Origin: Halogeometricum limi
GTDB taxonomy: Archaea; Halobacteriota; Halobacteria; Halobacteriales; Haloferacaceae
Assembly (NCBI RefSeq): GCF_900115785.1
Contig: NZ_FOYS01000004.1
Location: 62,001 to 126,000, forward strand
Length of the DNA stretch: 64,000 nucleotides
Reading direction: 5' to 3'
Numbering within the stretch: the first letter of the stretch is position 1; the number at the start of each line of letters is the position of its first letter. A program made the translations under genes and the position numbers. Under the pieces are notes generated by a model. It was not told where the DNA came from. It ran no database searches and saw nothing but the letters and a program-made list of their open reading frames with translations. Below, in pieces: positions 5,940 to 31,707 of this stretch.

Positions 5940-6064
5940 GTCAATATAGAACAAAGCCACTATTATCAACTTCTATAGCTAAGTTAGATTTCAAGGTTAG
6001 AGATTGGTACTATCGGGAATACAGTGGATTGAATATCATTTGAGCTTGATTGTAGAAACATTTT

Positions 6065-7147: not shown

Positions 7148-7156
7148 GGATAATAT

Positions 7157-7166
7157 CCTATATAGG
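7157..7166 (+). promoter_or_regulatory. TATA box of the membrane-protein gene
   Basis: cctatatagg is centred 25-26 nt upstream of the ATG at 7187, consistent with a leaderless transcript that is separate from the Qng1-like gene. Confidence 0.55.
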
Positions 7167-7186
7167 AGAGGGGTTAGTACACTAGT

Positions 7187-8020: not shown

Positions 8021-8238
8021 TTGTTATCCACCCCACCCATAATATATGTCCAGAAATAGGGCATATCATCCACTAAAATATTAAACTTGAGGCCATATTG
8101 ATTGGAAAAATTGGATTGATTAATTGTGTATGTTATATCTTATTGAAAGACATTAACTGAGTTTTGTTTAACAAATATTGTTGTATATTTACGATATGAA
8201 CCCTACTCAAATTGAGAGAGGATAACGAGCATACGGCT

Positions 8239-8619: not shown

Positions 8620-8724
8620 CTTGCCCTATCATGGATCAGATTTGATAAGAAAGTATCGTTACAAGTGGACTGGACGAGCAATAATTCGTGATTGAGAATC
8701 CAGTCTGACGGATTCAACGAGTAG

Positions 8725-11190: not shown

Positions 11191-11192
11191 AT

Positions 11193-15784: not shown

Positions 15785-15799
15785 CCTCTATACAAGAAG

Positions 15800-16618: not shown

Positions 16619-17101
16619 TTATATTTCCTTCTTCATGAGCGCCATTTCTCGTCCCCCATCCGTTGTCCTCGTTGACGTAACCTGGAAGTCCATAGTTAGC
16701 CAGAACTGTTTTGCATCACTTGAAGCAGCTGTTTCAGCTATCAATACAGTTTTCCCTGCCTCTTTGGCGTAATTCTCTGAGGCTTCGATTAAGTCCGCAC
16801 CGAGGCCTGTACTACGGAAGTCCGGGTGAACAGCTATTAACCGTACTTGAGCTTGCCCTGGCTTTAGAACTCGTGATTCACACCAAACCATAGAAGCGCC
16901 GATCACCTCCTCCGTTTCGTTGTCATCAGTAAATAGTATATCCCGTCCTTCATTGCTGACTGCTCGTTCTAACCCATCACGATAGGTATACCAGTGAAGC
17001 TCCTTCTTAATCTGATTGTGGTTATACAATCGTTGAATTCGATCAATGTCCTCCGGGCGTGCAGTTTTAATCGCTGAGCGTTCAAACTCATTAGAAGTCA
17101 T
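16619..17101 (-). CDS. GNAT-family N-acetyltransferase (element cargo)
   Basis: 160-aa acyltransferase of the GNAT fold. The acetyl-CoA pyrophosphate-binding loop is seen in VRLIAVHPDFRSTGLGADLI (about 87-106: beta4, then a RxxGxG/A-type loop with RSTGLG), followed by helix ASENYAKEAG. The substrate is unknown. It is embedded between the HerA ATPase (1-bp overlap) and A2 (no gap), so it belongs to the operon. Two ideas are acylation of a protein partner, or acylation of the aminomethyl group of a preQ1-type base. Both are inference only. The fold call is good. Confidence 0.8.
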   Translation of the reverse strand: MTSNEFERSAIKTARPEDIDRIQRLYNHNQIKKELHWYTYRDGLERAVSNEGRDILFTDDNETEEVIGASMVWCESRVLKPGQAQVRLIAVHPDFRSTGLGADLIEASENYAKEAGKTVLIAETAASSDAKQFWLTMDFQVTSTRTTDGGREMALMKKEI

Positions 17102-18279
17102 TAGTTTTCACCACCTCCGTGTCTGCTCCGACGTGGCCGCATCTGAACAATTGAAATGCTCTCATCTTCATCATCTACATAAACGGCTTGGCCAACCCGG
17201 TCCAATTTTTGGATATATGTCTTTAGTTCGCTACTCATATAATCCTGAGAAAGTCGGTTCAATTCTTGGATGTCCTCACGAGTCGTGATCTTATGACAGA
17301 GGATAACATCACACTGAGAAACCATATCATGATCTAATGCCGATGGTTGTTGGGTTGCTACGGTAAGAGAAACGCCGGGCTGCCTGCCCTCCTTGACCCA
17401 CCGAATTAAGATGTCTTTCGAGAGGGAGGACTCACCAGAGGGAACGAAATTATGAGCCTCATCAATGAATAGCCAGACTCGAGGGACGTCGACTTGAAGC
17501 TCCAATTCTTCGCGTTTTCGTGCTTTGATTCGTCTTTTAAATAAGTCCCTGCACAGCACCGATACAACAAGATTCCGCAGACCGTACTTACCTGGATCCA
17601 CAACACTCAGATCAAGTACGTTCAGGCTCGTCTCATCTAGACGATCCCATATCGGAGTATACGTATCGCTGAACAGCCCCCAGTCTCGGGACATCTCCAG
17701 ACGGTTGAGCAGCGCTTCTTTCGTTCGCTCGTTGGATTGAGCATCGCCCTCTACCGTATCAATAATATCATCCAAATTGAACTCATTTCCCTGCTGTCGG
17801 GACAAGTTTCGTATCGCCCTGTAGAGGGTGATCCCCATTGGCTTATTGATATTCAAGTCAAACAAATCACACCAGCCATCGGGCGAAATGTCAGATGGAT
17901 TGATCTTTATCGCGCTGACTTCAAGTCCTCTCCGCTTCATCTCTGATAGAACTTCTTCACCATATCGCTCCTTCGGATTGCCTGGAACGAGAAGGTTGAC
18001 GCGGTACGCTCGCGACTGAAGTCCCCAGTCCCATAAGCTGTTCTGTTGTTCTTCATTTTCACTAACCATTGTCCAATATATTCCCATTGGGTCAACGATG
18101 AGAGGAACAACACCCTGGGTGTGGTCGTGGACTTCCTCAATGATGTCTCCCATCGAGTAACTCTTACCACTTCCCCGTTTTCCACAAATGAAGACTGCCC
18201 TGGAATGCGAGCCGTCTACGTACTCTTCTTCGTCTGTATCCAGTTCCTTCCCAATAAATAGTTCAATTTCGTCTTTCAT
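17101..18279 (-). CDS. HerA/DUF87-like ATPase
   Basis: 392-aa hexameric-type DNA-translocating ATPase of the HerA-FtsK superfamily. Walker A is GKRGSGKS (33-40) and VDPMGIYW follows the beta2 strand. Walker B is VWLFIDEAHNFVP (268-280, D273-E274). The HerA-type arginine/sensor region WVKEGRQPGVSLTVATQQPSALD (294-316) and a final CDVILCHKIT strand complete the fold. The family often pairs with nucleases such as NurA or SIR2 in defence loci; here it sits between PglZ D1 (4-bp overlap) and the GNAT (1-bp overlap). It may move DNA for the two modules. The family call is secure, the role inferred. Confidence 0.85.
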   Translation of the reverse strand: MKDEIELFIGKELDTDEEEYVDGSHSRAVFICGKRGSGKSYSMGDIIEEVHDHTQGVVPLIVDPMGIYWTMVSENEEQQNSLWDWGLQSRAYRVNLLVPGNPKERYGEEVLSEMKRRGLEVSAIKINPSDISPDGWCDLFDLNINKPMGITLYRAIRNLSRQQGNEFNLDDIIDTVEGDAQSNERTKEALLNRLEMSRDWGLFSDTYTPIWDRLDETSLNVLDLSVVDPGKYGLRNLVVSVLCRDLFKRRIKARKREELELQVDVPRVWLFIDEAHNFVPSGESSLSKDILIRWVKEGRQPGVSLTVATQQPSALDHDMVSQCDVILCHKITTREDIQELNRLSQDYMSSELKTYIQKLDRVGQAVYVDDEDESISIVQMRPRRSRHGGGEN

Positions 18280-19394
18280 TCTGAATCCTCCGAATTGCGA
18301 AACAGCAGTGGTACGAGTGACTCCTCATACGACAGTCCTCCATGAATTCCAAACTCGTCATGATGGAATTCCCGTGAGACAAACGGGTAGGGGAATACTG
18401 TGTACGTACTGCCATAAGCATCGAGCAGCTTTGCATCCCCTTGGACGCCGATTTTTGACTTTGCATACCGCATGTTGCTTTGACCATTTGTAGTCAGAAT
18501 ACTCATATGTGGCTCAAATTCTTTCCGCCACAAGATCCCGTGATCTGCCGTTAGAATAAATAGGTATGAATCGACTTGTTCGTCTAAGACCTCGCAGATT
18601 GCGTCAATATCTTGTTGGAGCTTCTTAATCTCATGATTGATGTCTGACTCTCGAACTTCCTTTCCGTCGTGGGCATCACCATCTAGTGCTCGTCTGCTAA
18701 TTTGAATGAACGTCCGATGGTCGCTCAGCCTTCGGTTTTCCAGATCACTAATGATCTCCTCAGATGTCCGAACCCTCGTCAGTTCCGAATCGCTGAAGTT
18801 CTCAAAAACGAGCTTGTTGAGATCGTTGTAACTCTCCTTATCCCAGTAACTGTAACCTCGCCGCCGCATGAATCCTCGCTTGACTAAGTGATCAACGATT
18901 GGCTTATTATCATGGCCGAATACAATATTTCGGTATCCAATTGGTGTAATAGTTGGTCCGTTGACTAAGCAGGGTTCTCCTTCAAGCTCCGTACCTTGCA
19001 CATCTTTGTATCCCAGCCCGTCAGCAATCATCAGAACGACTACCGACTCATCAGTCAGATAGTCCAATATCCGCCGCTTGATGTCTCGCTGAGTTAGTAG
19101 ATATTCCTCAACTTCTTCATACTTGGTTCCGATAATCTTATTTAGTGCTGGGGAAAGTGGGTCGTGATCGATCGACATTGAGGGGTAGGTAGTCGATGTT
19201 TTCACCCTCGGCTCTTTGATCGCGACGTTCCTTTCGAAACTCTTCGATGGATTATCTAGCTCATCTTCGAACTGCTTCTCTGACTCGAATAACTCAAGCT
19301 CTTCTTGCAAATAGAGATAGCTCAGCGGATGATCAACATCGACTACTACGGGATGAGATTTTGCCTCATCGACGACTTCCTCTAGTTTTGCCAT
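18276..19394 (-). CDS. PglZ-type phosphatase-superfamily protein, short form (module 1, D1)
   Basis: 372-aa protein that keeps the alkaline-phosphatase/PglZ metal motifs: VLMIADGLGY (D125), PTITPIGYRNIVFG in the nucleophile region (147-160, where the usual T-x-TG is altered to VFG), FILTADHGILW (DHG 284-286) and IHGGLSYEESLVPL (HGG 351-353). It lacks the long helical N-terminal part of the 821-aa PglZ at 8725-11190. It overlaps the C1 ATPase by 1 bp and HerA by 4 bp. It is expected to be a metal-dependent phosphoesterase-like component. The altered nucleophile region means catalysis may differ or be lost. Confidence 0.8.
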   Translation of the reverse strand: MAKLEEVVDEAKSHPVVVDVDHPLSYLYLQEELELFESEKQFEDELDNPSKSFERNVAIKEPRVKTSTTYPSMSIDHDPLSPALNKIIGTKYEEVEEYLLTQRDIKRRILDYLTDESVVVLMIADGLGYKDVQGTELEGEPCLVNGPTITPIGYRNIVFGHDNKPIVDHLVKRGFMRRRGYSYWDKESYNDLNKLVFENFSDSELTRVRTSEEIISDLENRRLSDHRTFIQISRRALDGDAHDGKEVRESDINHEIKKLQQDIDAICEVLDEQVDSYLFILTADHGILWRKEFEPHMSILTTNGQSNMRYAKSKIGVQGDAKLLDAYGSTYTVFPYPFVSREFHHDEFGIHGGLSYEESLVPLLFRNSEDSE

Positions 19395-22300
19395 TATTTC
19401 TCAGGTAGATCTCGGAACCGTTTTTGAACAGATAGGTCGAGAAGGTTTAATTTGAATAACTTTGCTAGCTTCACTGCGATTTCCTCTGGGTCTTCCGCCT
19501 CTTCACCTTGAGACTCCAAAATCTCATCGAGTTGGATCTGTTCCCCGAAATCTAGTTTCTCGTAGAGCTCTTGGATATCGTCAGACTTCGGTCGAACAGG
19601 ACGGTTGAGAGCATCTACTTCGTCACTAAGAGTGTCGACTTGCCTCCGAATCTCTGCGAGATTATCAGCAATCTCTGAACCCACCTCTTCACTATTCTGG
19701 AGAGACCAATCAGTTGTCGATTCAGAGACCTCTGAGAGTGCTTCGTATTGGGACTCAAGTTCGTGTGCAATCTCGTCAATCTCCGCACCCCTCGGAACTG
19801 TTTGGAAGCGCTTTGACCGTGAGACTGTTCTCTGCATATCGCTGAGACGACTTTCCATGGGGTCAATAACGTCTGAGTTCAACGTATCCAGAAACTCGGT
19901 TTCCAGATTGTCATATGATTGATCTGGATCCGCTTCAGAGAACTGAACTCGAAGTCCCGGATGCCCCCCATTCGCCGTAGATAGGATATTCTCTAACCGT
20001 TCTTTTTCTCTTTCGAATGCCTTCCGCTTCTGGCCGACCCGCTCGTCGAACTCGTCCTGGATCGCTTTAAATTCACCTTGGTAGGTATCTGCAGCCGTCA
20101 ACAATTCTCTGCCATGCTCAGAGAACTGCTCTGCGATACGTGTAAGCAACCGATCGAGCTTGTTCTCAAACTCATCTTCACCGGAGCGCTCCGTAAACCG
20201 CATAATTCGCTCATCTAGATCGACTGCCCGACCAGCTAGCGTTCGCCAATCTTCAAATCCACCACAGTACTGCTCCTGTTTTTCTATTTCTCCTTCTATT
20301 TCTTCTAGTCGACTCTTTTCGTTTTCACGGGTTTCTGAGAGCTCGATTACCGTCTCAACATTCGGATTCTGCGTATCATTGAGAGTCTTATCTATCTTCG
20401 AAGCCACGTTTCCAGCACGCGAGCCTTGATACTCTAATTGATTGTTGATCTTCGTTCGTTGTTTGTTCAAGTGCCGATTGAATGTGGCAGGAACTTCGAC
20501 CTTGTCCAGAAGATCTGATTCACTACGTCGCTTTAGCGACTCAGCTCGATCAGATAGCTCTTCGAGCGCCCGCTGATTACTGTGAAATTGGGATTTTATC
20601 TCTTCATCAACTGACCGCTTCAGGTTCGTAACTTCTTCTCGGAGATCTTCGAGAGTACCTTCGTCATCGGGAGAGGTATTTTCGATTTGTGTGAGTATTC
20701 TCTCACCCGTGTCTTTTAACTGTTCAGCTGAAGAAGATTCCTTAGGAACCCTATCGAGTCGGGAGAGAGCTTGTTCTAAATCTGGTTCGATATCTTCCTT
20801 ACGGACTGCTGTTTCGACACGAACTAAACTGCCATCCTCCTCGTCAAGATATTGTCGAGCGGTGAGCAGTCGTAGAATCTGGTCAAATTCCTCGTCAGTA
20901 TAACCTTCTTTCTCTGCAATTGCGGTTGCTTTCGTTTTACTCAGAGTTGCCCCTGCCTCGTCTTCGGGGAAATTCTCCAATATCACTTGCTCAAGAGGAT
21001 GCAACGCGAATGTGATTTCCGCAGTATCTGCATCTCCATGCCCCCAATCGAGGTCGATCAGGTCTTCATACTTGCTCGTGAGTTTTGTTCGAAGACTGGA
21101 ATGGTTCTTAACATTGAATGCGTCGCCGAGAGCGTCTTTGTCAACTACTACAGATCGACGACCCTGCTTTTGGGTGAGTCCAAGGTTTAGTACCGAGCTC
21201 TCGAGAGCGGACGTATATTCACCGACCAGTTTCGTGATACTATTTCCCTTGTATAAGGTGTGGTAATTTGGATATTGGTTTCGCATCACCGATCGGAACA
21301 GATCGTCGACCATGCGCTCGCGCAGTCTACGGATTCGGATATGACCTGGTGCCTGGTTTCGTAGTTCGTCATCGAAGAGGATCTCGATTGTCTCCGTGAT
21401 CAGGTTCTCTCGGAGGTTTTCTAAGGATTGAACCTCAGCGAGCGTCATATTATCTTCCTCGCTGTTGAGTTCACGATTAATCCGACTCGTCAGCGCGAGC
21501 ATTAGCAGAGGGGTGACGGAACGAGGGTTCATGTAATCCTTGAGCTTCCGAATACGCTGAGGAAGATCCCCCTTCATCAACGTCTCTTTTAGATCAAGTA
21601 CGATCTGATACGTCTCGTTTTCTTCCAGCTCATTCAGGCCTTCCTCGACCAGATATTTGTGGTCAAGGTAGAACCCCAGCTTGAGATCTGCATCTGAATC
21701 AATTCCATTCTCTGAGTAGACGTCACCTATATCTTGTTGTCGTCCCGTGACCCGCACATAGAGCCCGCGGTTCGGGTAATTCGGGTCGAAAGTACCTTCC
21801 CGATAGGATTCTAGCGTTTGCGCATGTAGCTGATTAGATTCACGAACTGTCCACCCTGTTTTCGATTGTCCCCGTCCCCGAGAGGGAAGGAGTTTTGGGA
21901 TAACATGGTCGTTGAATGCTTTGATCGCGTCAGCTACGTCTTCATCATTCTCTTCGAATTCTCGCCAGAAGTCCCGAAGAACCTCACTTCCGACAGAGAT
22001 GTCAGGGTCACCCTCAACAATATCGACTAATGTAAAGCCGTCTGCGTAATATGTGAGGAGAGTACCCTGGAGCTCCTGACTGAGTTCCTCTATAGTATCC
22101 TTCAATCCATAGGTAGCTGAGACGTCTTCTGTGACACCATTCGGGAAGGCTGCCATGAGCTTGATCGCTCGTTCATGATCCTCCGTCTCTGCTACATCTG
22201 CTGCCATAGCCTCAGCGACCGCACCGCGGACTTTTTGTTGCGGTTCTGTGAACCTAAGGCGGTTATCGATATATGCCTCAATATACTCAATAGGCGTAAA

Positions 22301-23332
22301 CGTGCTTTCCGATTCGATATATTGAGTCACCGCCAAACCCATGGCATCAATTACGGTTCGAGGACCACGACTGAGATCGTCGCGTGTTGCATACTGTCCG
22401 ATTGCAATCAAGGTCTCTTCCGGAATGATCTCATCTTTATAATCCTCAAATTCGTATTTTTCCGCATAATGGTCCCAGAGACGTTTTGGGAATTCATGAT
22501 CGTATGTAGAGGTTAGATTTAATAGCAGGTTGTTCTCTCGAACTCGGTCGAGAATATCCGCACCTCGTTCATTAATAACTGCTAGCTGTTCATCAGGGAT
22601 CGAGAACATCATACCGAATGAGACTGTTCGCGGGTTGAAACCCCAGATTATAGAACGGAGTTCCTCTTCCGCATGAGAATACGAGTGTTTCTTGAAAAAC
22701 TGTTGGACCTCATCAGGGAAAACAACTAACCCCTCGTAACCTGCCTCTTGGACGAGATCTGTTGCTTTGAGGAAGAATTCAACGAGGACCTCTGCTGGTA
22801 AGTCCTCATTCATTCGACCGCTTTCTTGGAGGCCGGTGATTATGTCGCTCAATTTGTCTGCTTCAATATCGTGTTCCTGACCTGCCTCTTCAGCAATTTC
22901 ACTAATCCCTTTGCGCTGGTATTTTTCTCTAAGCTGCCTAACTTGATCGGTATAGCGGTCAGCGAGCTTGTGCTCAAGCCATCCCGTTGTCGCTTCTAAG
23001 ACGTCAATGAGAGATGAAAGGATGAACGGCGGGACAGCAACATAATTTTCATTCTCGCACTTTTCCCAGAAGCTGATTGATGTACTGGTTTTTCCATAGG
23101 CGTACTTGCCAGCGATAATCCCGATGGTTCCATCTCCTTCCCCAAGATTCTTGAGAAGCCTTTCTTCAGTCTCTGAAGTATCCCCTAGTGAGAGATGTGT
23201 ACGAAGATGGTCACGATACTGCTCTTCGACTTCGCGTGGACTGTCTCGCAAGTGACGAGCCTGGACAGTGTCTACTACTTCTTCTTTCTGGGCGATTTCT
23301 TGGAGACGGGAGAGTTGATTTTGAGTGCTCAT
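19394..23332 (-). CDS. Very large P-loop ATPase with coiled coils, BrxC/PglY-like (module 1, C1)
   Basis: 1312-aa ATPase. Walker A is GKYAYGKT (75-82) and Walker B GLVVFPDEVQ (201-210). A long helical/winged-helix middle follows, including a GYTDEEFDQILRLLTARQYL HTH-like segment. The last 450 residues are strongly charged coiled coils (for example SRLEEIEGEIEKQEQ). It is nearly the same length as, and has the same plan as, C2 (1328 aa), with the shared G-(K/Q)-Y-x-x-GKT P-loop style, but sequence similarity is otherwise low. It overlaps B1 by 4 bp and D1 by 1 bp. It resembles BrxC/PglY in size and context; the exact family needs profile comparison. Confidence 0.75.
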   Translation of the reverse strand: MSTQNQLSRLQEIAQKEEVVDTVQARHLRDSPREVEEQYRDHLRTHLSLGDTSETEERLLKNLGEGDGTIGIIAGKYAYGKTSTSISFWEKCENENYVAVPPFILSSLIDVLEATTGWLEHKLADRYTDQVRQLREKYQRKGISEIAEEAGQEHDIEADKLSDIITGLQESGRMNEDLPAEVLVEFFLKATDLVQEAGYEGLVVFPDEVQQFFKKHSYSHAEEELRSIIWGFNPRTVSFGMMFSIPDEQLAVINERGADILDRVRENNLLLNLTSTYDHEFPKRLWDHYAEKYEFEDYKDEIIPEETLIAIGQYATRDDLSRGPRTVIDAMGLAVTQYIESESTFTPIEYIEAYIDNRLRFTEPQQKVRGAVAEAMAADVAETEDHERAIKLMAAFPNGVTEDVSATYGLKDTIEELSQELQGTLLTYYADGFTLVDIVEGDPDISVGSEVLRDFWREFEENDEDVADAIKAFNDHVIPKLLPSRGRGQSKTGWTVRESNQLHAQTLESYREGTFDPNYPNRGLYVRVTGRQQDIGDVYSENGIDSDADLKLGFYLDHKYLVEEGLNELEENETYQIVLDLKETLMKGDLPQRIRKLKDYMNPRSVTPLLMLALTSRINRELNSEEDNMTLAEVQSLENLRENLITETIEILFDDELRNQAPGHIRIRRLRERMVDDLFRSVMRNQYPNYHTLYKGNSITKLVGEYTSALESSVLNLGLTQKQGRRSVVVDKDALGDAFNVKNHSSLRTKLTSKYEDLIDLDWGHGDADTAEITFALHPLEQVILENFPEDEAGATLSKTKATAIAEKEGYTDEEFDQILRLLTARQYLDEEDGSLVRVETAVRKEDIEPDLEQALSRLDRVPKESSSAEQLKDTGERILTQIENTSPDDEGTLEDLREEVTNLKRSVDEEIKSQFHSNQRALEELSDRAESLKRRSESDLLDKVEVPATFNRHLNKQRTKINNQLEYQGSRAGNVASKIDKTLNDTQNPNVETVIELSETRENEKSRLEEIEGEIEKQEQYCGGFEDWRTLAGRAVDLDERIMRFTERSGEDEFENKLDRLLTRIAEQFSEHGRELLTAADTYQGEFKAIQDEFDERVGQKRKAFEREKERLENILSTANGGHPGLRVQFSEADPDQSYDNLETEFLDTLNSDVIDPMESRLSDMQRTVSRSKRFQTVPRGAEIDEIAHELESQYEALSEVSESTTDWSLQNSEEVGSEIADNLAEIRRQVDTLSDEVDALNRPVRPKSDDIQELYEKLDFGEQIQLDEILESQGEEAEDPEEIAVKLAKLFKLNLLDLSVQKRFRDLPEK

Positions 23333-23841
23333 GAGTGGTACCGGTTAAGATAGTTTCTAGTAGAGTCAAGTGAAGTCATCTCCGGATTAATGTTGTGTTT
23401 TGAGATGTTGATCCAGTTATCAATAATCTCTTCTTCTTCTTCGGTTGTCAAGCTCATACTTACTTGTGGAATTGTTTCTGCGTGACGTATAGGATGACGA
23501 GTGAGTAAGATACAATTAGAAATATAGTTCAGTTGACAATGTGCGCGAGTGGACCTGGCTTCAACTCGCCCAGAGGGAGCATCATCTACGACGACGTATT
23601 CCGATGCCACACTACTGAGCGGCCATTTCGTGTAAGACCATCCTTCATTTGAAAGGACCCATGCGAGGAACGTCTTTCCGCAGGAAGAACCGGCAGATAA
23701 TACTACTAACCGATGAGTCTCCAGTTTGTTTTCAACTTTTGTGAGTACCTCTTCCTGGCTTTCTACCAGCATCTCTCGAGATGCTTTTTGCTTCAATCTG
23801 TTTGAAAGGTCCAGCAGAGGGGCTAAGTTAGATGAGGTCAT
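23329..23841 (-). CDS. Small P-loop ATPase (module 1, B1)
   Basis: 170-aa protein. Walker A is AGSSCGKT (50-57), with Ala in the first position. Walker B is EYVVVDD (81-87) and an ILLTRHP stretch (sensor-like, about 111-117) follows. It is a minimal one-domain ATPase with no other recognisable domain. It overlaps A1 by 14 bp and C1 by 4 bp, so its output is coupled to both. It is the counterpart of the 201-aa protein at 15179-15784. By position it recalls BrxB, which is suggestive only. Confidence 0.7.
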   Translation of the reverse strand: MTSSNLAPLLDLSNRLKQKASREMLVESQEEVLTKVENKLETHRLVVLSAGSSCGKTFLAWVLSNEGWSYTKWPLSSVASEYVVVDDAPSGRVEARSTRAHCQLNYISNCILLTRHPIRHAETIPQVSMSLTTEEEEEIIDNWINISKHNINPEMTSLDSTRNYLNRYHS

Positions 23842-24691
23842 GGTAGTTGACAGGGTCTGACAGTCGAACTTGCTTTGCCATCCCGGTAGAAACTTCTAGA
23901 TGGTCGAATTCGCGAGCCCATTCAAGAACTTCGTCGAAGCCAGACTCGTCGAGAACGAGGATTCGACAGAGTGTTTCAATATTCTCGTTGTTTAGAATTA
24001 AGGCTGTTCCATAATCTGTATTCGACTCTTGATAAAGGAAATCGATTGCGACAAGAAGCATCTCTGCCGGTGCAAAGCTGCGAATTTGGAATTTCTCCTC
24101 CATCTCATTATTCGTATGTTGACCTTCTTCTATCACAGGTGGAGAGAGCTCTCTGAGATATTGAAATGCTCCGGAGATGCTTCGAGGGCCAATAGAGACC
24201 TCGTCCCGAATCGAGGTTAGTTCTTCCTGAGCTTGTTCAAAGATGGCTTCCGCGATCTCCTCGCGCGATTTTTTCGTACTAACTGGGTTAACGGGACTGT
24301 TGTCGATGAGGTAATCTACGACGGCTCCATAGGTCCACGATGACATTTCTCGATTTTTTGGCGGTACACCTTCTGCAGCGTCAATTCGATCTCGGGTATA
24401 GAAGAGATGATGTAGGATATTTTTGAAGAGTCGAATGTCGTGGTACATTACTTCAACTAGTTGTTCGCCGCGCTCTGTCCGGGTGGTTGCAGTTTCTAGA
24501 ACACCCATCTTCTTGAGGACAGTGGGGACTTCACGCTCGGTTTGATAGCCGACTTCGTATCCGAACTCTTCAGCAAGTTCGTAGACCTCTTTTCCACTTG
24601 ACGCATCCGGGTATTGGTCAAGAATATCGAGATACTGATAACACCATTCGGGGTTCGCTCCATCTCGAATGTGAAATGAAATGCGGGCCAT
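23828..24691 (-). CDS. Winged-helix-like accessory protein (module 1, A1)
   Basis: About 287-aa protein of unknown function. The winged-helix-like region is at about residues 35-85 (numbered from 24703): GKEVYELAEEFGYEVGYQT, then VLKKMGVLETATTRTERGEQL, the block shared with A2. A long helical C-terminal half includes LRELSPPVIEEG and SFAPAEMLLVAIDFLYQE. The frame allows ATG at 24703, but a TATA-like box centred near 24719 lies 28 nt from the ATG at 24691, so I prefer 24691. It may bind DNA as BrxA does, or be a DpdG-like factor. This is inference. Confidence 0.65.
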   Translation of the reverse strand: MARISFHIRDGANPEWCYQYLDILDQYPDASSGKEVYELAEEFGYEVGYQTEREVPTVLKKMGVLETATTRTERGEQLVEVMYHDIRLFKNILHHLFYTRDRIDAAEGVPPKNREMSSWTYGAVVDYLIDNSPVNPVSTKKSREEIAEAIFEQAQEELTSIRDEVSIGPRSISGAFQYLRELSPPVIEEGQHTNNEMEEKFQIRSFAPAEMLLVAIDFLYQESNTDYGTALILNNENIETLCRILVLDESGFDEVLEWAREFDHLEVSTGMAKQVRLSDPVNYHDLI

Positions 24692-24713
24692 GCTCACCAT
24701 CATTGGCTGTGAC

Positions 24714-24725
24714 TATTTAAAATAT
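24714..24725 (-). promoter_or_regulatory. Possible internal promoter before module 1
   Basis: Minus-strand tattttaaatag is an AT-rich TATA-like element about 28 nt upstream of the ATG at 24691, in the 56-bp gap after dpdA. It could drive the A1-to-D2 part apart from queF-dpdA. Confidence 0.4.
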
Positions 24726-24759
24726 TACTGAGAACCCATGTGATAGAGCTAGTCACGAG

Positions 24760-25764
24760 TTATGATATGGATCGGAGGATAGTAGTGTATCTCGACTTAT
24801 CATTCATCAGATCTAACATCTCTTCAGTTGAATAGCTGTTTATCGATTCCGCCATATCTCGAAGTACTATGAGATTATGTAGAATTCGGATAATGCGAGA
24901 ATCGCGTAGCTTATCATAAGATGCACAGAATGGGCATTTGTGACCCGTTTCCTTCTTGAGTTCCTCTAGATCACTTCGGAAAACTTTCGGACCAGTGCGG
25001 TCGGTTTTATGAGTGACGTTCCGGGGAGTTCGGAAGGGGAAGTATATGTCCCCGTATCCGGCTGCCCGAAGCCAACTGGAGCAGTCAAATGAATCGACTC
25101 CCAATTTTCCTAAGACTGGTATAGCAGTTGGGCCTCCAACACCAAATGCGTGAATTTTCAACCCTCGCTCGTGTGCGAGGTTAACGGCATATCGCAAAGT
25201 CTCTGCTACTCGTTCAGAGATGAAGTTAATTCCATTGTTTTTCCCGAATGTCTCGAAGCTCCCAAACCCAACGGTTTGAATCTGATCTAACTCGGAGTAT
25301 GTGTCAATACAGTCCGTAATGTGGGGATACTTACTGCCTTGAATGACTGGGACTGCTCGAGATTTCAATTCCTCAGGTAGAAAGTGATAGGAAAGCTTTG
25401 CATTCGTTCTAGTCTCTTTAACCTTTCTCTCAACAGTCTCATCGTCGTCATCACTCAGTGGAACATTATCCGGGAGTACGTACTGGTGAGCCCAACGGTT
25501 CTTATCATAGAAGGGCATAATGTAGTTATACAACTCATCAAAGTCGCCGTTATTGGTCTGGACGTGATACCCTCCCGAGTCAAACATCACATTCACGCCT
25601 TCTTTGCTCAACTGCTTCATTTCCTCGGTTAGCCCATCTCCCGTAGAAATCGGAGTGTATATGAGCGGATCCAGCGCTTCTAATGTGCCATATTCGCGCA
25701 GAAGATGCTCTTTAAATTTCCTGACCGTCGACGGACTTACCGTCATAGATGCATAGAGTTTCAT
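24760..25764 (-). CDS. dpdA: DpdA-like DNA 7-deazaguanine transglycosylase (TGT family)
   Basis: 334-aa TIM-barrel enzyme of the tRNA-guanine transglycosylase superfamily, which swaps guanine for a 7-deazaguanine base. The general-base Asp is in MFDSGGY (D62), the HAFGVGGP segment at 205-212 is conserved, and the nucleophile Asp is in VDSFDCSSW (D227). A CPFC...H zinc-site remnant (C277, C280, H296) follows. It lacks the C-terminal PUA/tRNA-binding domains of archaeal ArcTGT and is much shorter, which points to the DNA-acting DpdA branch known from Dpd islands and viruses. It sits between QueF and the PglZ modules. Sure of the superfamily, fairly sure of DpdA. Confidence 0.8.
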   Translation of the reverse strand: MKLYASMTVSPSTVRKFKEHLLREYGTLEALDPLIYTPISTGDGLTEEMKQLSKEGVNVMFDSGGYHVQTNNGDFDELYNYIMPFYDKNRWAHQYVLPDNVPLSDDDDETVERKVKETRTNAKLSYHFLPEELKSRAVPVIQGSKYPHITDCIDTYSELDQIQTVGFGSFETFGKNNGINFISERVAETLRYAVNLAHERGLKIHAFGVGGPTAIPVLGKLGVDSFDCSSWLRAAGYGDIYFPFRTPRNVTHKTDRTGPKVFRSDLEELKKETGHKCPFCASYDKLRDSRIIRILHNLIVLRDMAESINSYSTEEMLDLMNDKSRYTTILRSIS

Positions 25765-25818
25765 TTAAATACCCCAAGATGACAACTCTACACTGTGCGG
25801 ATTAGATTCCATCAAATT

Positions 25819-26196
25819 CTACTTTTCTTCTGAAGATTCGACAGTAGTGTAAATTCCACCGCGGGCTTTGAATTCGATCTCCACATGGACGGAATGTGGA
25901 GCAACTGCTTCTGCGATATGATTACAGATATCTGAGGCAGCTGCCTCATGCCAAATTCCCTTATCTCTGTATTCGAATAGATAGTCTCGCAGGCTCTTTT
26001 CTTCGATTATACGTTGATCTGGCTCATAGGTGATGTTCAATACCCCATGGTCTGGTCGTCCTGTGACAGGACAAACGTGAGTGAATTCCGGAAACTCAAG
26101 ATTCACTTTAACATCGCCGAATTCGTTAGAAAAGGATTGGAGATCAGGCTCTACACGTTCACACTCGATATCCTCTGCATCAGCGTACGTGCTCAT
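25819..26196 (-). CDS. queF: QueF-like preQ0-modifying enzyme
   Basis: 125-aa T-fold protein of the QueF family. QueF reduces preQ0 (7-cyano-7-deazaguanine) to preQ1 with NADPH; archaeal QueF-L instead makes the amidine found in archaeosine. The catalytic pair is intact with exact spacing: Cys in HVCPVTGRPD (C42) and Asp seven residues on (D49). The EEKSLRDYL block (65-73) resembles the NADPH motif E-x-K-S-h-(K/R), and HE (83-84) is conserved. This favours the reductase. It is shorter than usual type I QueF. As first gene of the operon beside DpdA, it predicts a preQ1-type base in DNA. PreQ0 would come from the host archaeosine pathway. Confidence 0.85.
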   Translation of the reverse strand: MSTYADAEDIECERVEPDLQSFSNEFGDVKVNLEFPEFTHVCPVTGRPDHGVLNITYEPDQRIIEEKSLRDYLFEYRDKGIWHEAAASDICNHIAEAVAPHSVHVEIEFKARGGIYTTVESSEEK

Positions 26197-26222
26197 GTAT
26201 TGTCAGTCGAAGTATTCACAAC

Positions 26223-26230
26223 ATATAATT
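26223..26230 (-). promoter_or_regulatory. TATA box of the queF-dpdA-PglZ operon
   Basis: Minus-strand aattatat (within acaattatatgttg) centred about 30 nt upstream of the ATG at 26196. This is the expected place for a haloarchaeal promoter with a very short leader. Confidence 0.55.
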
Positions 26231-27066
26231 GTATTGTAGCGAGAACAGTCTGTTATTGGTTCACACATCCTAAAGTAGCTCGCAGCTTTGACGACTTTAC
26301 AGCATTTCTTTGCAGATTATTGCAGGCAGTGAAGCCACTTACTCATCGTGGGATAGTTTAGTTGCAACCATCCCATAGACACCAAAGGCAGAAGTTGAAT
26401 AGACAGCGATATAACAACTGTATCTAAATTATGTCTGCAGAGTATTTGCCAATTTATTTGTATATGTCGCTTCCTGCTGCTGTACCGGCCACCGTCTGGT
26501 TCAGTTGGTTTCCAGTACATATGCCAGAAACTGCTGGCATCGCTCAGATACCTCGTGAATGAGACCATGAGACACTCCGGTAACGCACTGTAACGTACCA
26601 GATAATGGTTTACAAACCTGTTCTGACCCTACAGCGAGTAGAGATCGAGAAATACGACGTAACACACTGTTACAGGTCTTTGAGACGGCCACCTATTGTT
26701 TGGTCCAACGAGTTCGACTTCAGGAGATACAGTAGGTTCCACACAGTATTCTGGATATGCTCTCGCCATCTTGACCCACAAATCAATAATTGGTGTACTT
26801 ACCCTGACCAGAAGTATCATCTGCCATTAGATGGCTGTTCGGAGTAAAATCAGACATCTCCAGTCAGGGGTTGGCTGTCTGTTCAGGTTCATTTCAGTCT
26901 ACTCTCAATGTAGCATATTGTAGGTGTATTTACCGCCGAGCTATCTTCCAGATCGTGCCAAAAAATTGGGCTGGTTCAGCAAAACCAGATAGTTGATGAA
27001 GCGTCTATCTTGCTCGATACCCTCTTCTGGAAAGAACCTTGTATCATATACTGAATATTCAAAGTT

Positions 27067-27106
27067 ACAATTGGGAATGAGTATGCGATCCACCAATTCT
27101 TATTGG
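27067..27106 (+). promoter_or_regulatory. Operator-like palindrome, distal copy
   Basis: Contains acaattggga and, 14 bp later, caccaattcttattgg. Its ccaattcttattgg (27093-27106) matches the proximal palindrome at 27240-27253 at 13 of 14 positions. Probable binding site of the nearby RHH or HTH regulator. Confidence 0.45.
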
Positions 27107-27210
27107 TATACGGCCACCGGTAGCTGACTAATTTACGAATCAAAGAGATATTTTGATATTGAGGGCAGTTTAACATCCTCATACCCGATATTCTAGCTCA
27201 TCTGCTGTCA

Positions 27211-27253
27211 CTAATTGGGGAACACCAATTCACCAATCCCCAATTCTAATTGG
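27211..27253 (+). promoter_or_regulatory. Operator-like palindrome cluster, proximal copy
   Basis: A perfect 14-bp palindrome, ccaattctaattgg (27240-27253), lies immediately upstream of a TATA-like ctctaaata. An overlapping 9-bp inverted repeat aattgggga / tccccaatt (27213-27221 and 27237-27245) and a further ccaatt at 27225 lie in the same 43 bp. The site would allow an autoregulator to block the promoter. Confidence 0.55.
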
Positions 27254-27255
27254 CC

Positions 27256-27264
27256 CTCTAAATA
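27256..27264 (+). promoter_or_regulatory. TATA-like box of the integrase operon
   Basis: ctctaaata is centred about 27 nt upstream of the ATG at 27288 and directly follows the palindromic operator. Confidence 0.5.
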
Positions 27265-27287
27265 CTCAATTCAGCTCTCTCAGGGTG

Positions 27288-27497
27288 ATGACGTCGAACA
27301 CGTCAAGAGCATTCGCAGGTCGGCTCCCCGTCGACGAAGCGAAGCTCTTCGAAGCAGCGGTGGAAGAGTCGAACAGAACGAAATCCGATCTCGTGCGGCG
27401 GGCGATTCAGTACTACGTCAGTAAGAATCCAGACCGGCTGGAAGTTCTCTATCCAGACGATTCTCTGGAGCGGTTCACGCTGGAGTTGATGGACTGA
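27288..27497 (+). CDS. Ribbon-helix-helix (CopG/Arc-type) DNA-binding protein
   Basis: 69-aa regulator with the RHH pattern: a short strand FAGRLPVDEAKLF, then helix AAVEESNRTKSDLVRRAIQYYV with the typical T/N-x-S-D-L-V-R-R turn. It probably dimerises and binds the CCAATT palindromes just upstream, repressing its own operon; the palindromes are seen, the binding is inferred. The ATG at 27288 is chosen because the TATA box lies 27 nt upstream; a GTG at 27285 is adjacent. Its stop overlaps the next start (TGATG). It is the first gene of the plus-strand integrase operon. Confidence 0.75.
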   Translation: MTSNTSRAFAGRLPVDEAKLFEAAVEESNRTKSDLVRRAIQYYVSKNPDRLEVLYPDDSLERFTLELMD

Positions 27498-27727
27498 TGG
27501 CTGAAAACCAGGTGCCGACCATCGTCTACAACGAGCCTGAGGGACGTGAGGCTCGTATCGCGCGAGATGCGAACGGCGTCGCGATCGGAGTCGCCCTATT
27601 CTTCACTCCGGGAGAACTCGCAGCTGTCGGCGTTGACCCCGCGAGAACAGATATCGTTCGACTGCGGTTTGTCGACGGCGAAATAGACCTCGCACCAGCA
27701 GGAGCGAGAGAGTACCCATCAGCGTAG
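27497..27727 (+). CDS. Small haloarchaeal hypothetical protein (76 aa)
   Basis: Beta-rich, acidic 76-residue protein of unknown function. It shows an AbrB/SpoVT-like or small barrel rhythm: ARIARDANGVAIGVALFFTP, then VRLRFVDGEIDLAP. It overlaps the RHH gene by one base, so the two could be a regulatory or toxin-antitoxin-like pair, though no toxin motif is visible. Such small proteins often accompany integrases on haloarchaeal elements. Confidence 0.6.
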   Translation: MAENQVPTIVYNEPEGREARIARDANGVAIGVALFFTPGELAAVGVDPARTDIVRLRFVDGEIDLAPAGAREYPSA

Positions 27728-27782
27728 CCGTTGCGAATTGAGGAAACGGCTAAATCAGATGTTCCCGTTGCCTACATTAGAA

Positions 27783-28037
27783 ATGGATAATCCCCACGAA
27801 GACGGTGAGGGACGGGACGACGAGGGTAAGTTCTCGACGAAATACTCTCCAGAGGATTTCCTCAGCGCACTAGACCAATTAGGTGGCTCAGGGTCGACGA
27901 AGGAGATCGCAGACGAAGTCGGCTGTTCCAGGCGGACAGCGAACTATCGCCTCTCTGACCTCGAAGACGAAGGGCGAATCAACTCGCGCGAGGTCGGACG
28001 CTCGATTCTGTGGCAGGTGAACGAAGATGGCGAATAG
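27783..28037 (+). CDS. Winged-helix transcriptional regulator (84 aa)
   Basis: Small winged helix-turn-helix protein. After an acidic tail (MDNPHEDGEGRDDEGKFS), YSPEDFLSALDQLGGSGSTKEIADEVGCSRRTANYRLSDLEDEGRIN forms an ArsR/MarR-like HTH and wing. The start at ATG 27783 is preferred over a distant in-frame codon at 27738 because the extra 15 residues do not fit the family. It overlaps the next gene by 11 bp. It probably regulates excision or integration genes; target not visible. Confidence 0.75.
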   Translation: MDNPHEDGEGRDDEGKFSTKYSPEDFLSALDQLGGSGSTKEIADEVGCSRRTANYRLSDLEDEGRINSREVGRSILWQVNEDGE

Positions 28038-28464
28038 CCGCCACGCAGCGACGTATCCGAGCGAGGAGCAGTATCAGCGGTGGCAGGACCGCGCGAACGA
28101 GATGGGGATGTCCACTTCGGAATTCATCGAAGCGATGGTCGAGGCGGGGATGAAGAAGTTCACCGCAACCGTCGAGCCCGACGAAACGAACCAAGAGCTC
28201 CGAGATCAGCGACGGGAACTGAAAGACGAACTCGACCACACGCGGAGCCGAATACGAGAACTGGAGGACATGGTCTACCACGGAGAGCGCCGGACCATCA
28301 AACGCTACGTCGACGACAATCCGGGCGCGACGTACGACGAGATCATCCAGCACCTCATCGAGACCGTCCCCAGCAGAGTCACCACCCATCTCGGTGACCT
28401 CGAAGGAGACGAACTCCGCTACGAGGACGAAGGCTACTACCCGGTCACCGGAGACCATCTCTGA
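28027..28464 (+). CDS. Coiled-coil RHH-like accessory protein of the integrase operon
   Basis: 145-aa protein. The N-terminus RHAATYPSEEQYQRWQDRANEMGMSTSEFIEAMVEAGMKK reads as a ribbon-helix-helix domain. A coiled coil (about 55-85, ELRDQRRELKDELDHTRSRI) follows, then a C-terminal winged-helix-like segment (ATYDEIIQHLIETVPSRVTTHL). This layout is common for genes just upstream of haloarchaeal integrases. It could be a recombination directionality or arm-binding factor, which is inference. Its stop overlaps the next ATG by one base. Confidence 0.65.
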   Translation: MANSRHAATYPSEEQYQRWQDRANEMGMSTSEFIEAMVEAGMKKFTATVEPDETNQELRDQRRELKDELDHTRSRIRELEDMVYHGERRTIKRYVDDNPGATYDEIIQHLIETVPSRVTTHLGDLEGDELRYEDEGYYPVTGDHL

Positions 28465-29009
28465 TGGTCCAAGGCGACGCCGACACAGCCGAACTCGCTA
28501 CCAACGAATTCGGAGAGCGAGACGTCGAATACTGGCTGGGAGTGTACAAGTCGATAGACGAGGTTCCGACCCGATATCGACTGGAGAGTTTCTCGTCCGA
28601 ATTCGCTGGACAGGACACGTGGAGTGACTACTTGGATACGCGTGACGACCTCGCGGAGTCGACGAAGAAGAACTCGTGGTATCCGTGCGGCGACCGCTTC
28701 AAGAAGTTCATGCGAGAGAAAGTAGGGCGACACCACGCACTCGCTCACCCGGACGACATAGAGTCGTACCTGAGTCACATCAAAGACGGCGGTTACTCGA
28801 TCAAGGTCACGGAGCGGTCGTCGAACACCGTCTACTATCAGCACCTCTCCCCGCTGAAGACGTTCTTCGCGTGGTTGGTCCACCACGTCGACTACCCGCA
28901 CGTCTACAATCCGGTTCTACTGGCGGCCCACGCGGGCGGGATAACGTGCGAGGTGTGGTACTGGCAGACCGAATACAAACCCGGCTACGCGGAGCGACAG
29001 GATGAGTGA
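28464..29009 (+). CDS. Recombinase-like protein with only a core-binding domain
   Basis: 181 aa. Residues about 60-155 look like the SAM-like DNA core-binding domain of tyrosine recombinases (DRFKKFMREKVGRHH, DIESYLSHI, YYQHLSPLKTFFAWLVHHV, YNPVLLA). No catalytic domain follows: no R...HxxR...Y series is visible before the stop. It overlaps the catalytic integrase by 8 bp. It may help the integrase recognise att sites, act as an excisionase-like factor, or be a truncated recombinase. The intact coupled frame argues for a maintained gene. Confidence 0.65.
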   Translation: MVQGDADTAELATNEFGERDVEYWLGVYKSIDEVPTRYRLESFSSEFAGQDTWSDYLDTRDDLAESTKKNSWYPCGDRFKKFMREKVGRHHALAHPDDIESYLSHIKDGGYSIKVTERSSNTVYYQHLSPLKTFFAWLVHHVDYPHVYNPVLLAAHAGGITCEVWYWQTEYKPGYAERQDE

Positions 29010-30108
29010 AAACCAAGCAACCCACGAGACGATAGCACAGGCGTTCGGTCGAACGACCGACCCGCTGGCAGAGTACGACGGCCGATTCAAGCAGCTCGAC
29101 GTAGACCCGTTCCAGCTCTGGTTAGAAGAGCAGGTCTACACGAAGGAGTACGCGAAGGGGACGGTCAAGGCGTTAGAGCGTCCGATCGATCAGTGGTGCG
29201 AGTTCATGGCCGAACGGCACGACCGCCACCCGGCAGTTCCGACGACGAGCCACGTCATGGACTTCGCTCACTACTATCTGGAGGAGCGAGGCAACTCGAA
29301 GAACACGGTCGGCGTGAAGTTGGGTACGCTCAGCCGAGTGTTCCGCTACTTCCAGAGCGAGCCTGCCTTTCCCCACCCGACGGATTTCAATCCGTTTGAC
29401 GCCGCGAAGGGGAAGATCGATCTGAACGGCGACGACCCGAAGGAACCGCGTCCGATTCCGCTGGAGGAACTTCAGAGCGTTCTGCAGAACGAGGTCAAAC
29501 ACGTCCGCGATAGGGCGCTCATCGTCATGCAGTTCAAGCTCGGCCTCCGGGCGTCGGAGACATCGAACATCAAACTGAGCGAGATCCACATCGCCAACGC
29601 GGAATTGCAGGACCACTACGAGGAATTGGGCACGCACCCGGCGCTTGAAGGGAGACCGAACGCGGTCTTCATCCCCCACGACCGAGAGCGGAACAAGTCG
29701 GAGCGCCCGCGCGTGCTGCCATTAGACGACGAACTTCGTCGAGTGTTGCTCCAGTATCTGCTCTGTCGACCGGACAACGGTGAGCCGTGGCTGTTCCTCT
29801 CGAAATCGGGTGGGCGAAAGGTCGGTCACACGAACATCAACGACGTTTGGAAGAAGTACTTCCGACCGGAGTATGGTCCGAACGAGCGATATCGCGGCGT
29901 GTCGTCACACTACGGTCGCCACTATTTCACGACGTGGTTCAGTATCGAGAGAGAGTGGCCACGTGACCTCATCAAGTACCTTCGCGGTGATCGACAGAGC
30001 GGCGGGAAGATTCGGTCGACACGAGACGCTATCGACTCGTACATTCACGCGTGGTACGAGGACATAGAAGATCGGTACCGGGAGGAGATCTACAAACTTA
30101 GAATATGA
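29002..30108 (+). CDS. Tyrosine recombinase / integrase
   Basis: 368-aa site-specific recombinase. The N-terminal core-binding domain spans about residues 35-130 (KEYAKGTVKALERPIDQWCEF). The catalytic domain has Arg in FKLGLRASETSNI (about 189), HxxR in SSHYGRHYF (about 303-307) and nucleophile Tyr in AIDSYIHAW (about 346). It lies about 1.15 kb from the right attachment core, so it is the probable enzyme for integration into and excision from mutY. It is the last gene of a six-gene overlapping operon. GC is higher than in the cargo, suggesting a longer stay in haloarchaea or a separate origin. Confidence 0.93.
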   Translation: MSENQATHETIAQAFGRTTDPLAEYDGRFKQLDVDPFQLWLEEQVYTKEYAKGTVKALERPIDQWCEFMAERHDRHPAVPTTSHVMDFAHYYLEERGNSKNTVGVKLGTLSRVFRYFQSEPAFPHPTDFNPFDAAKGKIDLNGDDPKEPRPIPLEELQSVLQNEVKHVRDRALIVMQFKLGLRASETSNIKLSEIHIANAELQDHYEELGTHPALEGRPNAVFIPHDRERNKSERPRVLPLDDELRRVLLQYLLCRPDNGEPWLFLSKSGGRKVGHTNINDVWKKYFRPEYGPNERYRGVSSHYGRHYFTTWFSIEREWPRDLIKYLRGDRQSGGKIRSTRDAIDSYIHAWYEDIEDRYREEIYKLRI

Positions 30109-30137
30109 TCGAACCGGAGAGAAGAAACAAAAATCGT

Positions 30138-30827
30138 CTAACGGCTCGCAATTTTCGCTTTCGCCGCGGTATTTTTTCGACTGAATGATGTGATTTTCAC
30201 ATTTACCACATCATCCACAGCGATATCTTCCGGTACGTCTTTCACAAAGATCTGAAAGCCTTGGTATGTACCTCTCAGATCTCGTCTACCAGAGTGATGG
30301 TCCGTCTCTTCTTCTAACAAGATTTCGTATACGCCACCCAGCTCGACTGGTGGTTCCCTTTCTTGAGCGTCTTTATGCGCCATGTACGATTCTTCAACCT
30401 TATTGTTGGGTTCATCTGGCGTAATTGAGCTATCACTCGCGCCTGCAGAAAATCGAGTCTCCTCCCCGTACTCACCACTGTCCGACTTTTCGATGTCGTC
30501 CGTGAAGTCACCTACAGACATTTCAGCCCCCTCCTCCTCTGCCCTCTCGTAGGCTCGAATTACTTCCTTCTTGAGAATGTCCTCAATCTCATTTGACTCG
30601 CGGGTTTCGACTTTGTAGCTTGTCTGGCTGGCTTCTCCCTCAGAAAAATATCTCTTCTCACCGATGACTACTCCCTCATCTCTAACCGCTGTTATGAATG
30701 CCTTTTTAGTATCGGTACTGTGAGAAGATGACGTCTGAGAACCAGCAGAGTTCCGCTTTCTGACTTTCTGTGCGACTTTGACCGCACCGACTACTGCAGC
30801 GAGCCCAGCCAAGTATGGAGCAACCAT
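30138..30827 (-). CDS. Membrane-anchored TRAM-domain protein
   Basis: 229 aa. A hydrophobic N-terminal anchor (PYLAGLAAVVGAVKVAQKV, about 4-22) is followed by a Ser-rich linker and a charged region, then a C-terminal TRAM-like beta-barrel (about 165-225: ELGGVYEILLEEETDHHSG, VKDVPEDIAVDDVVNVKI). TRAM domains bind RNA and are common as small chaperone-like proteins in archaea. A membrane-tethered TRAM is unusual. The gene faces the integrase operon tail-to-tail with a 29-bp gap. Function inside the element is unknown. Confidence 0.7.
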   Translation of the reverse strand: MVAPYLAGLAAVVGAVKVAQKVRKRNSAGSQTSSSHSTDTKKAFITAVRDEGVVIGEKRYFSEGEASQTSYKVETRESNEIEDILKKEVIRAYERAEEEGAEMSVGDFTDDIEKSDSGEYGEETRFSAGASDSSITPDEPNNKVEESYMAHKDAQEREPPVELGGVYEILLEEETDHHSGRRDLRGTYQGFQIFVKDVPEDIAVDDVVNVKITSFSRKNTAAKAKIASR

Positions 30828-30900
30828 GTAGAAAAATAAACAGGTTAGTATATATTACTAACGCACTATTCAGTTGTTCAGAAAATTGGCAAGAAGAGGA

Positions 30901-31047
30901 CTACTCCTCGTGCTTCGGACCTCGGGTGAACTTTTTGCTCTCTTTATCTCGGTAGCGTTCCGCCTCCTCGTTGTACTCCTCGCGAGTAATGGCGTTCTTC
31001 ACCTTGTCGACTCCCTTCTTTACCTTGTTAGAGGCTTTCTCGGGCAT
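30901..31047 (-). CDS. Small, highly charged 48-aa protein
   Basis: Short gene on the minus strand, ATG at 31047 and TAG at 30901. The product begins MPEKASNKVKKGVDKVKNAI and ends FTRGPKHEE; it is rich in Lys, Glu and Arg and probably helical. GC and codon use look protein-coding (mostly C/G third positions amid AT-rich flanks). No family is recognised. It lies upstream of the TRAM gene on the same strand, 73 bp away, between that gene and the right attachment site. It could be a DNA-binding or excision accessory factor; that is a guess. Confidence 0.55.
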   Translation of the reverse strand: MPEKASNKVKKGVDKVKNAITREEYNEEAERYRDKESKKFTRGPKHEE

Positions 31048-31225
31048 ACGGTCCAAAGTTTTGCTACGTTATCATATTATGGTTTCTACCAGTTTCAGAT
31101 TTTGACTAGTAACTTCAAATTTGATTATTCCCGTCCTCTATCAAACGTGTATCTACTGGGTAGCGACAGTATACCTCGGTATTTGGCCATTCACAATCTC
31201 TGTACGTCGTTTCTAGCCGGACACT

Positions 31226-31241
31226 GACCTCAATCGAGGTC
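31226..31241. repeat. Perfect hairpin next to the right att core
   Basis: gacctc-aatc-gaggtc is a 6-bp perfect inverted repeat with a 4-nt loop, ending 20 bp before the right attachment core. It could be a recombinase arm site or a terminator. Confidence 0.5.
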
Positions 31242-31245
31242 TATT

Positions 31246-31707
31246 ATGAATTTCGCCCATAACCGCGCCTTCGACGTCCCCGACGACGACGCCGCGTTCG
31301 AACGCGTCGCGCAGTTCGTCATGCCCGACGGCGAGTCGAGAGTCTGGAACAACGCCATCATGGAACTGGGGGGCGTCGCCTGCGGGAAGACGCCACAGTG
31401 TGACGAGGCGGGGTGTCCGTGGCGCAGATGGTGTCACGCCTACGAGACGGGCGATTTCACCGCGCCGGACGTGCCGACGCAACCGAGTTTCGAGGGGAGT
31501 CGCCGCCAGTTTCGGGGTCGCGTGATTCGCGTCCTCGGCGAGTACGACGAACTCTCCCTGGACGAGTTGGGGCCGCGGGTTCGGGTCGACTACGGCGGCG
31601 ACACCGGGGAAGACTGGCTTCGCGGGTTGCTCTCGGACTTGGAGGGAGACGAGTTGGTGTCCGTCGCGGAGACGCAGAACGGCGTCGTCGCGCGTCTGCG
31701 CGAGTAA
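31246..31707 (+). pseudogene. mutY: Orphan native 3' half of mutY
   Basis: This is the original C-terminal half of MutY displaced by the element. After an element-provided ATG and four codons (MNFAH) it reads N-R-A-F-D-V and continues with WNNAIMELGGVACGKTPQC and the [4Fe-4S] cysteines CGKTPQCDEAGCPWRRWC. It ends in a MutY-type C-terminal domain. Codons are GC-rich like the host. It closely parallels the C-half at 5482-5939. It lacks the catalytic HhH domain, so it cannot act as a glycosylase. It has no frameshift, and the fortuitous ATG means it might still be translated. Excision would restore native mutY. Confidence 0.9.
31262..31268 (+). other. Right attachment core (attR)
   Basis: accgcgc at the point where native mutY sequence resumes. 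It matches the left core at 5482-5488. Crossover placement within this block is inferred. Confidence 0.7.

Follow-up and report, generated by a model that had tools for sequence, protein, structure and literature searches.

We propose that a conserved operon of haloarchaea encodes a BREX-Related Capture (BRC) defence system with its own supply of preQ1, in which a transglycosylase of the DpdA/TGT family would mark host DNA as self by inserting this base, a reading to which we assign somewhat better than even chances. The broader prediction, that archaeal DNA would carry a chemical mark of self, is a strong one, drawn from the retention of both the nitrile reductase QueF and DpdA in every haloarchaeal relative of the operon. 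The operon lies in a 64,000-nt stretch of the Halogeometricum limi genome (GCF_900115785.1, NZ_FOYS01000004.1, positions 62,001-126,000, forward strand), hereafter the window. The original prediction had regarded the link between a TGT-family enzyme and PglZ as new, but this link had already been published as the BRC architecture in January 2026 (Rakesh & Krishnan, NAR 2026, PMC12839542). That paper, on 45 taxa, proposes dPreQ0 as the DNA base and makes no mention of QueF. The new element here is that, judging from gene content, QueF is an obligatory component of the haloarchaeal branch, and this sets the haloarchaeal locus apart from the published BRC systems.

On the minus strand of the window the genes are arranged in the order QueF, DpdA, a 291-aa protein in the BrxA position, STAND, BrxC/DUF6079, PglZ, HerA and GNAT, with the QueF and DpdA genes being the opening pair of this longer unit (Table 1). 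HerA, the BrxC-type ATPase, the GNAT and the TGT can be recognized by profile, and PglZ, STAND and DUF4007 are tentatively assigned by position and weak profiles. HerA scores 51.1 bits with PF01935 against a cut-off of 23.2, and the BrxC-type ATPase of the window remains below the PF10923 cut-off of 22.2 bits (16.2), with its Haloplanus orthologue rising above it (27.3). The short PglZ protein scores 12.6 bits with PF08665, below the cut-off of 25, and matches the PADLOC PglZ model at 5e-4; its DGLGY/DGLSY and T(A/S)DHG motifs are mostly kept among the relatives. The STAND NTPase reaches 17.7 bits with nSTAND3 against a cut-off of 27.2 and has an intact P-loop, and the 291-aa protein, which has no Pfam matches, is tentatively assigned to DUF4007 by its conserved position only. 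By architecture, the locus is thus best placed with the BRC systems, with which it shares the combination of BrxC-type ATPase, HerA, GNAT and TGT with a putative PglZ, a putative STAND NTPase and a BrxA-position protein in one operon, and among which GNAT-TGT fusions are also seen. It differs from the published systems in that the haloarchaeal branch always adds QueF, with the predicted base being of the preQ1 type rather than preQ0, and in that the window carries an appended second PglZ/ATPase cassette.

Table 1. Genes of the operon and of the surrounding element, in coordinates of the window
Feature	Position	Strand	Evidence
QueF, preQ0 to preQ1 nitrile reductase	25819..26196	-	TIGR03139 110.2 bits, PF14489 76.9 bits
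DpdA/TGT-family transglycosylase, PUA-less	24760..25764	-	PF01702 37 bits; AlphaFold and Foldseek TGT fold
291-aa protein, DUF4007/BrxA position	23828..24703	-	orthologue at the equivalent place in every locus
Small STAND/AAA NTPase, BrxB position	23329..23841	-	P-loop GSSCGKT; position conserved
BrxC/DUF6079-type large ATPase	19394..23332	-	PF10923 16.2 bits; 27.3 bits in Haloplanus orthologue
Short PglZ-family protein (alkaline phosphatase superfamily), presumed nuclease effector	18276..19394	-	BREX_PglZ_4 2.5e-6
HerA/FtsK-type DNA translocase	17101..18279	-	PF01935 51.1 bits; PADLOC HerA 1e-23
GNAT acyltransferase	16619..17101	-	PF13673 38 bits
Second cassette gene 1: 272-aa BrxA-position protein	15800..16618	-	operon continuity; weak DUF5343
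Second cassette gene 2: small AAA ATPase	15179..15784	-	PF00004 20.6 bits, just under cut-off
Second cassette gene 3: 1328-aa ATPase	11193..15179	-	weak AAA_22
Second cassette gene 4: 821-aa PglZ-family protein	8725..11190	-	PF01663 50.6 bits, PglZ 22.4 bits
126-aa protein of unknown function	8239..8619	-	recurs next to BRC loci
Queuosine-salvage nucleoside hydrolase, Qng1/DUF2419-type	6065..7147	+	PF10343 202 bits
Two tyrosine-recombinase genes	28464-29009, 29002-30108	+	PF00589 38.5 bits, PF02899

The window QueF, a protein of 125 aa, exceeds the cut-offs of both TIGR03139 (QueF-II; 110.2 bits against 86.9) and PF14489 (76.9 against 27.3). Its Cys42 and Asp49 are separated by exactly 7 positions, as in Bacillus subtilis QueF, and its HE and EEKSLR segments align in register with the HE and ESKSLK of the latter, the NADPH block having diverged to EEKSLR in place of ESKSLK, a point against the preQ1 reading. 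The active-site features noted in the original prediction are thus upheld by alignment, and by sequence the protein is a canonical unimodal QueF. The NADPH motif, E-x-K-S/A-L-K/R, is present in every QueF copy of the BRC loci. With TIGR03139 the window and type 1 QueFs (the sublineages are described below) score 110-148 bits, the type 2 form (Haloplanus) 82 and that of the halovirus HVTV-1 78. The occurrence of preQ1 in the DNA of HVTV-1, cited in support of the original prediction, is corroborated by the literature: about 30% of G in this QueF-bearing virus is dPreQ1, and phage Dp-1, which has a QueF homologue, likewise has dPreQ1 (PMC6884629). Given its canonical reductase features and scores, we favour a preQ1-type base, rather than preQ0 only, as the predicted product of this QueF.

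Window-type DpdA is present in 8 of 392 haloarchaeal genomes, the window genome included, and QueF in 11, namely all eight with DpdA and three others. QueF is thus found in 8/8 genomes with DpdA as against 3/384 without it (Fisher exact p=1.3e-14), and in all eight it lies inside or adjoining the operon. The seven other loci, from several families, repeat this set of eight genes and its order; the one departure is the QueF of one genome (G019), which is encoded past the GNAT on the opposite strand. A ninth locus, on a Haloplanus plasmid, has QueF after the GNAT and is flanked at its opposite end by queC, queE and queD. The QueF gene shares 4 nt with that of DpdA in five relatives (G135, G068, G245, G167 and G043). 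Searches with the BrxC-type ATPase hit exactly the eight genomes that have DpdA, which implies that the haloarchaeal unit appears all or nothing, and no BRC locus without a TGT was found in the 392 haloarchaeal genomes or in plasmids. A scan of genome contigs with a strict DpdA pattern gave four loci, and a DpdA scan of viral contigs none. Carriers of the operon include Halorientalis regularis and Haloplanus sp. HW8-1.

The QueF proteins of these loci fall into several sublineages. Six loci have type 1, G019 and Haloplanus have type 2, and the window has one of its own, closest to that of B. subtilis (42% identity). The type 2 group also holds copies from outside BRC loci. This distribution is suggestive of repeated recruitment of QueF into the haloarchaeal operon from two or three lineages, a count that is inexact because the QueF tree is short and weakly resolved. 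Retention of QueF by the operon while its lineage varies is the pattern expected if the QueF product is needed. Separately, one of the three QueF genes outside BRC loci directly precedes a DUF6610 gene in an apparent provirus (L060:9760-10933), and a DUF6610 homologue is also encoded by HVTV-1 (gp69; L073:6644-7804). DUF6610 was therefore considered as a candidate for the transglycosylase that HVTV-1 seems to lack. It contains an H-x-LGG-x-P...S-x-D stretch of TGT-like character, and this one region can be aligned, at low probability, with four TGT families; its structural model is TIM-barrel-like and matches the generic TIM-barrel type only.

The window DpdA (334 aa) matches PF01702 at 37 bits against a cut-off of 26.3. 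This TGT domain is its sole Pfam match, and the same search found no PUA domain. Asp62 (DSGGY) and Asp227 (SFDCSSW), which align with the base and the nucleophile of TGTs, are invariant across the relatives, as are the presumed zinc ligands C277, C280 and H296. Both catalytic residues and the lack of a PUA domain are therefore as originally described. An AlphaFold model (pLDDT 89, pTM 0.89) finds archaeal and bacterial TGTs as its best matches in a Foldseek search of the PDB, with probability 1.00. The protein scores 39.9 with the TgtA equivalog model (cut-off 350) and 14.6 with that of bacterial DpdA, NF041059 (cut-off 200). In a tree of TGTs that includes long branches, those of phage 9g DpdA and E. 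coli TGT, the BRC transglycosylases group together in a single clade, have 9g DpdA alongside, and are split from the tRNA TGTs with support of 99/98. The grouping with tRNA enzymes that had been named as evidence against the original prediction is thus not seen. The separate clade, the low TgtA score and the operon context together favour DNA rather than tRNA as the acceptor. Beyond this clade, haloarchaea have at least three further TGT families (about 345, 415 and 668 aa) in which both catalytic aspartates are kept (L009-L019, L072); these lie outside the tRNA TGT clade, and some adjoin preQ0 genes or BREX-type ATPases. A different Halobacteriota lineage encodes a 373-aa TGT together with a DUF5591 protein, a 1413-aa NTPase and HerA (L082:8757-16331), another apparent TGT-HerA system.

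That preQ0 would come from the host, as originally suggested, agrees with the genome. QueC is absent from the element that bears the operon and is encoded on another contig (246 bits), and a canonical TgtA is also encoded (296 bits), along with a 606-aa frame resembling ArcS that gives a shorter match to the TGT family. With host TgtA, ArcS-like and QueC genes, the preQ0 used for archaeosine should be available. No QueF was found in the window genome outside the element.

The element itself is integrative (5510..31707) and sits inside mutY, with low GC, a GC step and tyrosine recombinases. It carries a diverged replacement for the 3' half of mutY (5510-5939, +), and the native half has been displaced to about 31284-31707 (+), as judged from register-matched homology and from the translations. 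In the window genome the second PglZ/ATPase/AAA cassette (8725-16618, -) joins the end of the operon without a gap. A duplication of the first cassette was ruled out as its origin, the two being non-orthologous: the 1328-aa ATPase does not match the profile of the first BrxC-type ATPase. This cassette is absent from the other BRC loci and has no match among plasmids. Homologues of the 126-aa protein (8239-8619), with the core pattern IFR-(L/M)-x-DRSTT, adjoin BRC operons in G135, G068, G043, G019 and the Haloplanus plasmid. Queuosine-salvage genes of the PF10343 family occur in three of 392 haloarchaea (window 6065-7147, L090:14746-15780 and L091:9094-10116); the one in G080 adjoins apparent QueD, QueE, FolE and QueC genes and two other TGT paralogues. 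The enzyme may recycle 7-deazaguanine bases from DNA. As a component of BRC it is unsupported, being associated with one BRC locus only and having another copy beside preQ0 genes.

The GNAT is found in all nine haloarchaeal loci. It is fused to the N-terminus of the TGT in two bacterial relatives, G397 and Oscillatoria (loci L081 and L041), and is adjacent to the TGT in Desulfovirgula (L056); an N-terminal segment resembling F-x-x-R-x-x-L-x-x-A is common to the haloarchaeal and bacterial GNATs. Since preQ1 bears a free primary amine, its N-acylation would be chemically natural, and we tentatively raise the possibility, less probable than the insertion of preQ1 itself, that the final mark is an N-acylated preQ1 such as N-acetyl-7-aminomethyl-7-deazaguanine, with QueF making the amine, DpdA inserting the base and the GNAT acylating it. 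QueF is not present in the bacterial BRC operons examined, nor, above cut-off, in three of the four bacterial BRC genomes tested (G392, G393 and G397), these being MAGs or draft assemblies that may be incomplete. Hence preQ1 does not appear to be general to BRC, and the presence of the GNAT in QueF-less bacterial systems weakens the case for its action on preQ1; it may act on some other substrate. A supply of QueF to the bacterial systems from the queuosine pathway of their carriers was also considered and is unsupported, with QueF above cut-off in one genome of the four.

Several other readings of the QueF-DpdA pair were weighed. The inserted base could be preQ0, giving dPreQ0 as proposed by the BRC authors, with QueF serving another purpose; we hold this to be unlikely. 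Dpd-type DpdA does put preQ0 into DNA (PMC6884629), QueF is missing from bacterial BRC operons and the host produces preQ0, but no haloarchaeal case is without QueF, and the gene is hardly found outside them. Moreover, the pathway would end in dPreQ1 whether QueF reduces free preQ0 or dPreQ0 already in the DNA. Quite improbable, in our view, is that QueF acts like the archaeosine synthase QueF-L, which would place archaeosine (dG+) in the DNA. Sequence separates QueF from QueF-L only with difficulty (PMC6884629). The window protein has a weak match to QueF-L 5jyx (E=0.0019), as against 3e-19 to the B. subtilis reductase structures. QueF-L lacks the NADPH motif that all the BRC copies have, and the window and type 1 QueFs outscore that of HVTV-1, a virus with dPreQ1. 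Thus, of the two kinds of base named in the original prediction, the preQ1 type gains support from the canonical QueF and its strict co-occurrence with DpdA, and the archaeosine type is the less supported.

That the pair instead makes preQ1-tRNA and merely accompanies the defence genes is also unlikely. The closest folds in the PDB are tRNA TGTs, with no DNA-acting TGT among the matches listed, and changes in tRNA are capable of acting in defence; yet the host already carries TgtA and the ArcS-like gene, and the PUA-less DpdA, remote from the TgtA equivalog and in a clade of its own, shares its operon with DNA-handling proteins. Since the locus lies in a mobile element with other cargo, QueF might be in a defence island by accident, an explanation with practically negligible odds given the presence of QueF in all eight genomes and the plasmid, in adjacent or overlapping genes and from distinct lineages.

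The preferred reading, insertion of preQ1 into DNA, has parallels in other systems. Like the Dpd islands of bacteria, the haloarchaeal operon links a TGT-family enzyme predicted to put a 7-deazaguanine in DNA to restriction genes, but profile searches of the operon proteins found no DpdB or DpdC, DpdA is far from the Dpd equivalog (14.6 against 200) and QueF replaces DpdC. With HVTV-1, itself a haloarchaeal virus, and Dp-1 it shares a QueF-family protein giving dPreQ1 in DNA (PMC6884629), although theirs serves viral genome protection rather than being part of a host operon, and HVTV-1 is reported to be without a recognised DpdA. BREX type 4 and other phosphorothioate-based systems are similar in that their restriction part is of the PglZ/BrxC type and their DNA mark is not a methyl group (PMC12839542), this mark being a backbone sulphur and not a base exchange. 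In contrast to BREX types 1-3, the operon has no methyltransferase, with PglX/BrxX and other methyltransferases not found among its proteins in profile searches.

We know of no BRC system whose chemistry has been characterized. From the gene set we infer a route in which preQ0, produced by the host for tRNA archaeosine, would be converted by QueF to preQ1 (7-aminomethyl-7-deazaguanine), which DpdA would then swap for guanine in host DNA, with the BrxA-position and STAND/BrxC proteins presumably helping to select the sites. Acylation of the base is a possible role for the GNAT, as is action on the DpdA product. The preQ1-type mark would serve as a self label in defence, and unmarked invader DNA would be attacked by PglZ together with BrxC and HerA. 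Because QueF is so strictly paired with the system, the prediction is a sharp one: dPreQ1 or an acyl derivative of it in archaeal chromosomal DNA. Were this borne out, a hypermodified guanine would be what tells a PglZ-type restriction machine of Archaea that DNA is self, and one could test what the puzzling GNAT-TGT fusions act on. An acyl-preQ1, if true, would to our knowledge be the first 7-deazaguanine DNA mark of a host chromosome in Archaea and the first acylated one to act as a self label. For viruses like HVTV-1, their own dPreQ1 could allow evasion of such a system.
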